Shown: positions 2,583-47,007 of the stretch, in pieces
Layout: each line of letters begins with the position of its first letter
Numbering within the stretch: position 1 is the first letter of the stretch
Source: Sphingobacteriaceae bacterium
GTDB taxonomy: Bacteria; Bacteroidota; Bacteroidia; Sphingobacteriales; Sphingobacteriaceae
Assembly (NCBI GenBank): GCA_029266635.1
Contig: JAQSWM010000001.1
Span: 434,001-498,000 of the forward strand
Length of the DNA: 64,000 nucleotides
Direction of reading: 5' to 3'
Made by a program: the position numbers and the translations under genes
Notes under the pieces: generated by a model
What the model saw: the letters and a program-made list of their open reading frames with translations, nothing else
Databases searched by the model: none
Told to the model about the DNA's origin: nothing

Positions 2583-3704
2583 ATGAAAATAGAAACCATT
2601 GCCATACACGCCGGAAACCTAACAGATCAAAATTCAAAAGCCGTAATCCAGCCCATCACGCTGTCTACAACCTTTGAACGTGGCGAAGACGGCGGCTATC
2701 CCGCAGGCTACATGTACACCCGTGCCGATAACCCGAACCGCAAATCGCTGGAGAACGTGCTGGCAGAATTGGAGGGCGGCGAGGATGCATGTTCGTTTTC
2801 TTCAGGGAATGCGGCAGGCGGAGCGGTTTTCCAGTCGCTTGAGCCGGGCAGCCACATCATTGCCCCCGATGATATGTACCACGGCCTGCGCACGCTGCTG
2901 AACCAGGTTTTCAAAGGAATTTTAGATGTTGATTATGTTGAGCTCGCGGATATTGAGGCAGTTAAACAAGCCCTTCGCCCGCAAACAAAGCTCATCTGGA
3001 TCGAAACGCCATCAAATCCGCTGTTAAAGATATCCGACATCAAAGCTCTTGTGCAATTGGCTCAGCAACGGAACATTATGGTTTGTTGCGACAACACGTT
3101 TGCCACGCCGGTGTTGCAAAGGCCGCTGGAGCTTGGCGCCGATCTGGTGATGCATTCTACCACTAAATACTTCGGCGGGCATAGCGATGTACTGGGCGGT
3201 GCGCTCATCACCCGGAAAAAAGATGCGGCATGGGAGAAAATCCGCAGCATACAATCGCTGGCTGGTGCTGTGCCCTCCCCTTTCGATTGCTATTTGACTG
3301 TTCGTGGAATTAAAACCTTGCCTTACCGGATGCGTGGGCATGTGGAGAATGCGGGCAAGCTGGCTAAGTTCCTTCAAAATCATCCAAAGGTTGAAGCCGT
3401 GTTTTATCCCGGACTGGCTTCGCACCCAAATCACAATATCGCCGCAGGGCAGATGAGCGGCTTTGGCGGGATGCTTTCGTTCCTCGTAAAAGGCGGTGCC
3501 GAAAGTGCCAGGAAGGTGGCGAACTCGGTACAAGTATTTACCCAGGCAACCAGCCTCGGAGGAGTGGAAAGTTTGGTTGAGCATCGTTTTTCTGTTGAAC
3601 CGCCAGATACCAAAACTCCCCAAAACCTGCTTCGGGTATCTGTAGGGCTGGAAAATATTGAAGATCTGATTGAGGATTTAAGCCAGGCGCTGGAGAAAGT
3701 TTGA
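2583..3704 (+). CDS. Cystathionine gamma-synthase-type PLP enzyme
   Basis: 373 residues, the usual length for the Cys/Met metabolism PLP family. The N-terminal phosphate-binding region (YTRADNPNRKSLE) and the Schiff-base lysine in MHSTTKYFGGHSD are intact, as is the C-terminal SLGGVESLVEHR segment. The family joins or cleaves sulfur amino acids: cystathionine gamma-synthase, cystathionine beta- or gamma-lyase, or O-acetylhomoserine sulfhydrylase. The neighbouring riboswitch-controlled metX, which makes O-acetylhomoserine, points to a synthase (MetB-like) role, but sequence alone does not separate the activities. It lies upstream of the riboswitch, so it is not under the visible SAM control. 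Confidence 0.85.
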   Translation: MKIETIAIHAGNLTDQNSKAVIQPITLSTTFERGEDGGYPAGYMYTRADNPNRKSLENVLAELEGGEDACSFSSGNAAGGAVFQSLEPGSHIIAPDDMYHGLRTLLNQVFKGILDVDYVELADIEAVKQALRPQTKLIWIETPSNPLLKISDIKALVQLAQQRNIMVCCDNTFATPVLQRPLELGADLVMHSTTKYFGGHSDVLGGALITRKKDAAWEKIRSIQSLAGAVPSPFDCYLTVRGIKTLPYRMRGHVENAGKLAKFLQNHPKVEAVFYPGLASHPNHNIAAGQMSGFGGMLSFLVKGGAESARKVANSVQVFTQATSLGGVESLVEHRFSVEPPDTKTPQNLLRVSVGLENIEDLIEDLSQALEKV

Positions 3705-3743
3705 TCAGCCGGAGCACCGGACGCATAAGAATTACAAATTAAA

Positions 3744-3776
3744 TTTGGTTTCTTTTCTTCATTCCTCCTATCTTTG
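3744..3776 (+). promoter_or_regulatory. Promoter of the metX transcript (TTTG-N21-TATCTTTG)
   Basis: TTTG at 3744-3747 and TATCTTTG at 3769-3776 are separated by 21 nt, an exact match to the Bacteroidota primary sigma consensus. Transcription would begin near 3782, about 45 nt before the SAM-I riboswitch, leaving a leader of about 340 nt before metX. Confidence 0.75.
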
Positions 3777-3823
3777 AAATATTATTTGGTAGCGATACCT
3801 CAGTCAATACCCTTCAACAAGGT

Positions 3824-3932
3824 TTGATTTATAAAGAAGTGGCGAGAGACAGGCTCAATGACCCACTGGCAACCTCCGAAAGGAAAGGTGCCAATTCCTG
3901 TCCCGAAAAACAGCCGGGAAAATATAAATGTT
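3824..3932 (+). ncRNA. SAM-I (S-box) riboswitch
   Basis: The core shows the S-box signatures: GGCGAGAGACAGGC, then CACTGGCAACC, a GAAA-capped P3 hairpin and GGTGCCAATTCC. A P1 helix closes it: ATTTATA at 3827-3833 pairs with TATAAAT at 3923-3929. A CCC...GGG P4 stem lies at about 3901-3918. SAM-I aptamers bind S-adenosylmethionine and lower expression of methionine genes. No Rho-independent terminator is visible between the aptamer and metX, so the output mechanism is not obvious from sequence. A small Met/Cys-rich ORF begins 8 nt after the aptamer. Confidence 0.9.
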
Positions 3933-3939
3933 TAAAACC

Positions 3940-4050
3940 ATGAGATTAAAAAACTTCCCTCAGCATGGCTCGGGTACGAGCCTTCTAAATCCAAGCAACA
4001 TCATTTGTAGCTCTGCATCTTTTTATATGTGCGGCTTCTGTATGTGCTAA
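3940..4050 (+). CDS. Putative 36-residue Met/Cys-rich leader peptide
   Basis: An ATG begins 8-11 nt after the riboswitch P1 helix and opens a 36-codon frame ending in TAA at 4048-4050. The product starts MRLKNFPQHGSG and ends ASFYMCGFCMC. Five of its last seven codons encode sulfur amino acids (ATG TGC, TGT ATG TGC), and a further Cys is at position 23. No signal peptide is evident. It fills the leader between the SAM-I aptamer and metX, which starts 73 nt later. Such clustering near the stop is what a ribosome-stalling or attenuation peptide sensing Met/Cys supply would show. That role is inference; no Shine-Dalgarno is present, which is normal in this phylum. Confidence 0.55.
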   Translation: MRLKNFPQHGSGTSLLNPSNIICSSASFYMCGFCMC

Positions 4051-4123
4051 TCAGCGGCGTTGTAATCGGCTTCGCCAAATTATCAATTCAAACATCCGGA
4101 ACTACAAACGACCATTGAACACC

Positions 4124-5185
4124 ATGAACACCCCACACATATACAAACACAAAAAACAGTTTAAATTAGAATGCGGCAAGAAGCTGAACAAGCTTGAAAT
4201 TGCTTATCACACTTACGGAACGCTGAACGAAAAGAAAGATAACATCGTTTGGGTCTGCCACGCGTTAACAGCTAACTCGGATGTTTTTGACTGGTGGAAA
4301 GGTTTTTTTGGAGAAAATAACCTGTTTAATCCGCAGGACCATTTTATCATTTGTGCCAACATCCTCGGCTCGCCGTACGGCACCACAAATCCGTTGAGCA
4401 TAAATCCGGCTACTTCACAGCCGTATTTTCTCTCCTTCCCGCAAATAACAGTCCGCGATCAGGCAGCAGCACATAAAATCCTCGCAGATCATCTTGGCTT
4501 TAACAGCATCGCAGTTTTGATGGGCGGTTCACTGGGCGGGCAACAGGCAATGGAGTGGGCGATTACAGAGCCGAACCGTTTTAAGAAGCTGATCCTGATG
4601 GCTACCAACGCCCAACACTCGCCGTGGGGAATTGCTTTCAATGAAAGCCAGCGCCTGGCCATCTCCAGCGACCGCACTTTCTACTCCAATTCTCCCGATG
4701 GCGGCAAAAAAGGGCTCAAAGCTGCACGGGCTATCGCTTTGCTATCCTATCGGGGATATGATACCTATGCAATTTCTCAGCAGGAAGTATCGGCAGATAA
4801 AGTCGATGGATTTAAATCATCATCCTACCAGAATTATCAGGGCGATAAACTGGTAAACCGCTATAACGCATACAGCTATTGGTATCTCACGAAAGTGATG
4901 GACAGCCATAATGTGGGGCGCAAACGCGGCTCGGCAGCAGAAGCGTTAAAGGCGATAAAAGCACAAACACTGGTAATCGGCATCAAATCGGATCTTCTTT
5001 TCCCGGTTGACGAACAGAAGTATTTGGCTGCTCACATTTGCAACGCCGAATACGTAGAAATCAGTTCGCTTTACGGGCACGATGGCTTTTTGGTTGAAAC
5101 GCAAATCTTAACAAGAGAAGTTGGCGCATTTCTGCGGAAACCGCTCGTGGAGAAAAATACAATTGCTTTGCATAAAATTGCATAG
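4124..5185 (+). CDS. metX: Homoserine O-acetyltransferase MetX
   Basis: 353 residues from ATG 4124; an in-frame TTG at 4115 would add only three residues and is less likely. This alpha/beta-hydrolase-fold enzyme transfers acetyl from acetyl-CoA to homoserine, committing it to methionine. The nucleophile elbow GGSLGGQQAMEW lies near residue 137, and the C-terminal Asp/His pair is seen in IKSDLLFP and YGHDGFLVE. Expression should be controlled by the SAM-I riboswitch and possibly by the small Met/Cys-rich ORF in the leader. The acetylated product fits the upstream gamma-synthase-type enzyme. Confidence 0.93.
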   Translation: MNTPHIYKHKKQFKLECGKKLNKLEIAYHTYGTLNEKKDNIVWVCHALTANSDVFDWWKGFFGENNLFNPQDHFIICANILGSPYGTTNPLSINPATSQPYFLSFPQITVRDQAAAHKILADHLGFNSIAVLMGGSLGGQQAMEWAITEPNRFKKLILMATNAQHSPWGIAFNESQRLAISSDRTFYSNSPDGGKKGLKAARAIALLSYRGYDTYAISQQEVSADKVDGFKSSSYQNYQGDKLVNRYNAYSYWYLTKVMDSHNVGRKRGSAAEALKAIKAQTLVIGIKSDLLFPVDEQKYLAAHICNAEYVEISSLYGHDGFLVETQILTREVGAFLRKPLVEKNTIALHKIA

Positions 5186-46863: not shown

Positions 46864-46894
46864 TATGGCGGTCTGCTGAAAATTTCTACTTTTG
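46864..46894 (+). promoter_or_regulatory. Likely promoter of the transaldolase gene
   Basis: TATG at 46864-46867, one mismatch to TTTG, then 19 nt and a perfect -7 TACTTTTG at 46887-46894. Transcription would start near 46900. Confidence 0.5.
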
Positions 46895-47007
46895 CCGCGG
46901 GTAAGTCTTTTACGACCAGCTCCCTTTGAACTCCCCCAGGGTGGGAACACAGCAAGGGTAGGAGGTTGTAGCGGTGCGATAAAAGGGGCTTGCCCATTTT
47001 TCACCCC

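Follow-up and report, generated by a model that had tools for sequence, protein, structure and literature searches.

Organization of the metX locus

The window, a stretch of 64,000 nucleotides from a Sphingobacteriaceae bacterium (contig JAQSWM010000001.1), carries metX, predicted to encode homoserine O-acetyltransferase, behind a leader region in which a SAM-I aptamer is closely followed by a small open reading frame ending in Met and Cys codons. The features, all on the forward strand, are as follows.

2583-3704, + strand: gene for a Cys/Met PLP enzyme, upstream of the promoter
3744-3776, + strand: predicted Bacteroidota-type promoter, TTTG-N21-TATCTTTG, from a pattern match; -33 element TTTG at 3744-3747, -7 element TATCTTTG at 3769-3776
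3788-3799, + strand: 5' hairpin GGUA-GCGA-UACC with GNRA loop, GGUAGCGAUACC, from the sequence and its predicted fold
3826-3930, + strand: SAM-I aptamer, Rfam RF00162, 81.2 bits (gathering score 44.4)
3826-3833 and 3923-3930, + strand: the P1 strands GATTTATA and TATAAATG, joined solely by A-U and G-U pairs
3940-4050, + strand: leader ORF of 36 codons plus stop, ATG at 3940 (9 nt past the aptamer), TAA at 4048-4050
4027-4047, + strand: terminal Met/Cys cluster ATG TGC GGC TTC TGT ATG TGC, the proposed stall site
4051-4123, + strand: untranslated spacer, C-rich and G-poor (21 C, 12 G), a candidate Rho-loading region
4056-4076, + strand: small hairpin GGCG...CGCC within the spacer
4124-5185, + strand: metX (TIGR01392), the putative regulated gene

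The initial annotation had described a promoter, an S-box aptamer, a small ORF shortly after it and metX without a terminator in between; each of these was recovered here, and the final seven codons of the ORF agree with its description. No intrinsic terminator was found, with 0 terminator-like sites in 3700-4200. The identity of metX is supported by a match to TIGR01392 (E 2.9e-103, yet under the curated cut-off of that model); the start that agrees with homologues is ATG 4124, and the product shares 72% identity with MetX of locus L185, where the gene likewise lies behind this aptamer and leader. The promoter pattern is loose, with ~3 chance matches expected per 64 kb, and its -7 element is kept in relatives: among the matches listed, TANNTTTG lies within 110 nt 5' of the aptamer at 90 of 113 related loci, compared to 10 of 304 control stretches, and at these related loci its distance from the aptamer is mostly 54-62 nt. 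The hairpin at 3788-3799 sits just past the predicted transcript start, and a string resembling it is found again in the leaders of several relatives. It is followed by a second small hairpin directly 5' of the aptamer (3811-3822 in the window), as it likewise is in relatives.

The leader ORF translates as MRLKNFPQHGSGTSLLNPSNIICSSASFYMCGFCMC, with the C-terminus ...YMCGFCMC*. A second in-frame ATG at 3928 overlaps P1; relatives conserve the start at +6 to +11 instead. The window contains 481 ATG-initiated ORFs with a length of 15-60 codons, and this is the only one with at least four Cys or Met in its last eight codons. Elsewhere in the window, a Bacteroidales small SRP RNA was identified at 46892-46999 (104.8 bits).

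Distribution and coding content of the leader

Three samples were used for comparison: every RF00162 match listed for 60 relatives, a pattern scan of GTDB genomes for the aptamer subtype of the window (at least 120 records), and 40 more SAM-I loci from across the phylum. The subtype is defined by GATTTATAAAGAAGTGGCGAGAGA, and the next element is an ORF that opens with ATG and runs for about 16-53 codons, its start mostly 6-11 nt past the aptamer among the matches listed. The 113 loci of this subtype among the matches listed include Pedobacter, Sphingobacterium, Olivibacter, Mucilaginibacter and Hymenobacter, as well as others, and the pairing of aptamer and leader occurs in at least about a hundred genome records. 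Typical leader ends are CCMCCCCC, CMCCCIQ, MCCCMC and RMCCCCVCCC, while Sphingobacterium-type leaders end in Arg-Met-Arg and have fewer Cys residues. The feature is real, is conserved through much of Sphingobacteriaceae and also occurs in Hymenobacteraceae.

One might argue that the ORF arose by chance and that the aptamer alone controls metX through an unseen platform, and the ORF is indeed absent in some relatives. Among the matches listed, however, the aptamer-proximal ORF has at least three Cys or Met in its last eight codons at 75% of 113 loci and at least four at 58%, whereas for 7318 other small ORFs of the same loci the figures are 1.3% and 0.14%. Together with the frame-specific Cys and Met enrichment described below, this background rate of tails contradicts a chance ORF, which we find scarcely credible.

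The spacing between aptamer and leader bears on how the two may be connected. The 3' strand of P1, TATAAATG, occupies -17 to -10 relative to the leader ATG of the window, and closure of P1 should thus hide the ribosome-loading site of the leader. In relatives among the matches listed, an abundance of A around the leader start and a second codon AAA are strong features of that start. In locus L025 the same aptamer is present but the leader is absent, and metY starts 10 nt past the aptamer, apparently a natural case of leader loss; since metY here starts at the leader's place, the aptamer may act on whichever start sits there. The tight spacing, mostly 6-11 nt, and L025 together support the earlier proposal of an aptamer that controls access to the leader ATG.

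The leader is not universal. Conservation of the frame among relatives, which the initial annotation had put forward as a check, holds for the 19 of 29 metY/metX SAM-I loci of the window's family that have the leader; at the other 10 the ORF lacks the Cys/Met tail or is absent altogether, and for this reason we consider the partnership of aptamer and leader to be labile. A few leaders without the tail persist at the same position. No ORF of this kind goes with the second SAM-I aptamer of the window's genome, which precedes metH, and the genome's own metY, on another contig, has neither a Cys/Met leader within about 400 nt nor a SAM-I aptamer. At SAM-I loci of Flavobacteriaceae-like families (the family names being provisional) and several others the leader is mostly absent. 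The MetY of the window's genome falls among Pedobacter (Sphingobacteriaceae) sequences, without strong support; the MetY of locus L202, from a record titled Flavobacteriaceae bacterium PS02338, falls inside Pedobacter, and this record is probably misnamed.

The comparative alignment proposed in the initial annotation clearly favours a coding leader: the position of the ATG, an open frame and a Cys/Met-rich end are conserved, with synonymous exchange of TGT and TGC, and the tailed leader occurs solely ahead of metY and metX and, once, cysH. In 102 relatives among the matches listed, Cys and Met make up 46% of the last ten codons in the ORF frame, compared to 3% and 16% in the two remaining frames and 5.5% elsewhere in the leader ORF; codons 2 to 13 are almost free of both residues among the matches listed. 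Near pairs of leaders have an excess of third-position changes, and their pN/pS is 0.59 versus 0.90 and 0.67 when the frame is shifted, a modest difference from pooled, related and non-independent pairs. From one genus to another the N-terminal parts have diverged freely, as they should if nothing but the terminal codons and the openness of the frame matters, and seven leaders compared with NCBIfam and Pfam gave no real match to a peptide family (one matched weakly, with E 0.013 and 0.067). From the sequences compared, we conclude that the leader end is a coding signal.

A different reading of the same codons is that they are a by-product of constraint on the RNA, such as a UGY-rich hairpin or a protein site. 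In Pedobacter the terminal Met/Cys codons do lie within a conserved hairpin. Two more helices accompany it there: CTTCC/GGAAG, which is invariant, and another that covaries strongly (97% of cells paired versus 31-61% in slid controls). Pairing of Cys codons with bases past the stop is seen in Mucilaginibacter (L039, L061). Against this, Cys runs occur without unusual structure at many loci, for instance L035, L026, L031 and L090, and only one frame shows the enrichment. The tryptophan codon TGG is one base away from the Cys codons and introduces no stop; among the matches listed it is used 3 times in the leaders, compared to 316 TGY codons (TGT 175, TGC 141). We therefore judge a pure RNA constraint to be improbable, and retain the reading of the leader end as coding.

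The region around and after the stop codon is nevertheless structured in several genera. Across loci its mean z is about -1.7 relative to shuffles, compared to -0.3 for the head of the leader. At 18 of 18 Sphingobacterium-type loci there is a helix whose 5' arm starts at the leader stop codon, pairing TAGTCGTY with RACGRC, and its closing C-G or T-A pair mostly changes together. At Sphingobacterium-type loci L133, L177 and L209 the leader end is a nearly invariant CGAATGCGNTAGTCGT, reading Arg-Met-Arg-stop with no Cys runs; its nucleotides, including the stop codon, seem to be constrained by the next helix. The structures after the leader differ between genera; conserved helices lie at or after its end in the Pedobacter and Sphingobacterium types, and a mutually exclusive pair of helices is a candidate at most. 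In Pedobacter, the 3' arm of the codon hairpin, once freed, might pair with a conserved GTACGC, but inspection by eye showed this pairing to be inconsistent. The leader region of the window is not more folded than shuffles (z -0.49), nor is its stretch around the stop significantly so, and we accordingly claim no structural model for it.

Regulated genes, terminators and the spacer

In relatives SAM-I aptamers precede metY, metX, metH, hom, metE and cysH, and in the window metX. In the family and phylum survey, Cys/Met-tailed leaders were found at 22 of 60 SAM-I loci before metY, metX or cysH (17, 4 and 1, respectively) and at 0 of 72 loci before other genes (Fisher p 2e-9, with related genomes pooled); these 72 leaderless loci, which also have SAM-I aptamers, precede metH, hom, metE, TonB or cysteine desulfurase-like genes. 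In several other families SAM-I lies ahead of the same genes without the leader. The cysH case, L229 of Bacteroidota family f27, has a SAM-I aptamer of similar subtype and a leader ending in seven Cys codons, and it raises the possibility that the device may serve sulfate assimilation too.

Terminators are distributed differently. Between aptamer and gene, 13 of 28 leaderless metY/metX SAM-I loci contain intrinsic terminators where about 2 are expected, while the number at leader loci is close to that expected by chance (7 of 22, 2.8 expected); in several of the latter matches, the tract of Cys codons itself serves as T-rich tail. The leader thus seems to have taken over the terminator's role as expression platform at metY and metX. 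Aptamer, ORF, codon bias, gene association and loss of the terminator are all borne out by the comparison of related sequences.

If an intrinsic terminator does not act at leader loci, the spacer may. It has more C than G at 98% of leader loci, with a median skew of 0.26, compared to 0.00 where SAM-I precedes other genes without a leader and 0.11 at leaderless metX/metY loci. This composition is only suggestive of Rho. The window's genome does encode Rho, and given the lack of a terminator and the C>G spacer we prefer Rho-dependent termination of untranslated leader RNA as the likely effector. The C-rich and G-poor spacer, the absence of a terminator and the gap of 73 nt between leader stop and metX point to Rho rather than to translation of metX as the output. 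Leader attenuation is little studied in Bacteroidota. Another candidate was noted in the window's own genome, in G000:C13 near 202100 (L265), where a 19-codon ORF with five His codons, MPLVFTHHMHFDHHPCGDR, starts 126 nt before hisG; this is a probable his leader peptide, so that leader attenuation is probably used in this organism.

Proposed mechanism and relation to known systems

We suggest that the locus is best described as a SAM-I riboswitch with a Met/Cys leader peptide as its expression platform, and we think it likely, with some reserve, that aptamer and leader together form a two-input cis-regulator of homocysteine and methionine synthesis; translation of the leader, stalling, the direction of the output and the part played by Rho are what we infer. 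With SAM bound, the A-U-rich P1 would close over -20 to -10 of the leader ORF and block ribosome loading, while at low SAM the leader would be translated. A shortage of charged Met- or Cys-tRNA would then stall ribosomes on the terminal Met/Cys codons, and a stalled ribosome would keep the RNA beyond the leader from folding or from binding Rho, so that transcription could reach metX (or, in most relatives, metY). When the leader is untranslated, or is translated to its stop and the ribosome released, the C-rich spacer, now exposed, would shut the gene off together with its hairpins. In the Sphingobacterium type, a ribosome stalled at the final Met codon would mask the 5' arm of the stop-codon helix. 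We take the untranslated state to be the off state on the metabolic ground that high SAM must lower metX. The more specific logic, in which metY and metX are on solely if SAM is low and aminoacyl-tRNA is short, Rho is the effector and the leader has replaced the SAM-I terminator in part of Bacteroidota, we favour only slightly.

A simpler scheme would be that the translated leader just couples SAM to transcription without sensing tRNA charging: translated RNA would be open, untranslated RNA would be terminated by Rho, and the Met and Cys codons would slow ribosomes generally or give a short-lived peptide. The tight spacing of P1 and ATG, the C>G spacer, the presence of Rho and the few tail-less leaders that remain in place would all fit such a scheme. 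It does not predict, however, that Cys/Met enrichment is limited to the last codons and to metY, metX and cysH, which is what sensing of tRNA would predict; we thus regard simple coupling as unlikely, though worth serious consideration, and prefer the two-input regulator.

SAM-I is among the best-studied riboswitches, and its output is regarded as either an intrinsic terminator or the masking of the structural gene's own start. In its score, well above gathering, and in the methionine-pathway genes downstream, the aptamer described here resembles other members of RF00162 (S-box), but its proximal start is that of the leader peptide and no terminator is next to it; a terminator is not obligatory for SAM-I. 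The leader resembles ribosome-mediated attenuators of trp, his and ilv operons, having a short ORF with the pathway's own codons before the stop, biosynthetic genes downstream and, in some genera, a hairpin over the codons; unlike in those, no intrinsic terminator or antiterminator was found, and translation apparently lies behind a metabolite aptamer. In mycobacteria, the poly-Cys uORF belongs to a leaderless transcript and begins right at its 5' end, whereas the ORF here starts ~160 nt downstream of the predicted promoter, beyond the aptamer. Actinobacterial leader peptides have a Cys-codon run near the stop, and for those of mycobacteria, which have no conserved terminator, the authors propose Rho (PMC1262725). 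These three traits are shared with the leaders described here; the Actinobacterial ones use Cys alone, have unrelated sequences and are described without a riboswitch in PMC1262725. The uORFC-8-2 of cysS in Rhodobacterales is a predicted attenuator of the ribosome-mediated kind (PMC8632094).

The nearest precedents are the uORFs of B12 riboswitches and the mgt leaders, as far as the accessible parts of the respective papers describe them. In M. tuberculosis, metE and ppe2 have B12 riboswitches with uORFs, and a translated leader alters downstream expression (accessible text of PMC11260477); a translated leader under riboswitch control is thus common to both, the leader here being putative. The ligand there is B12, and a run of codons for the pathway's amino acid is not described as a sensor in the accessible text of PMC11260477. 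The ppe2 uORF acts mainly by termination-reinitiation, its stop overlapping the gene start, while in the window the two are 73 nt apart (same text). By this precedent for a riboswitch-gated uORF, the leader could also act by translational coupling, bringing ribosomes to metX or metY by re-initiation. However, a distance of 73 nt, or mostly about 70-220 nt in relatives, is long for re-initiation, and the metX and metY genes have an A-rich start context of their own, which makes coupling rather improbable in our view. In Salmonella mgtA and mgtCBR, one leader RNA joins short ORFs with stem-loop attenuation and can read several signals; they belong to another pathway, and the accessible text describes no SAM-type aptamer over the ORF start (PMC3641672). 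Our literature search, subscription papers aside, found no system joining a SAM riboswitch to a leader peptide or uORF.

If the two-input regulator is correct, the output of the riboswitch would be permission to translate a second sensor, placing two classical RNA sensors in series, and it would provide a concrete case of riboswitch-uORF logic in Bacteroidota. The tuning of metY and metX apart from metH under the same ligand would also be explained. It would also imply that current annotations lack many short Met/Cys peptides, and the methionine-synthesis genes of these soil bacteria, relatives of Pedobacter, probably read both their end product and the supply of amino acid.
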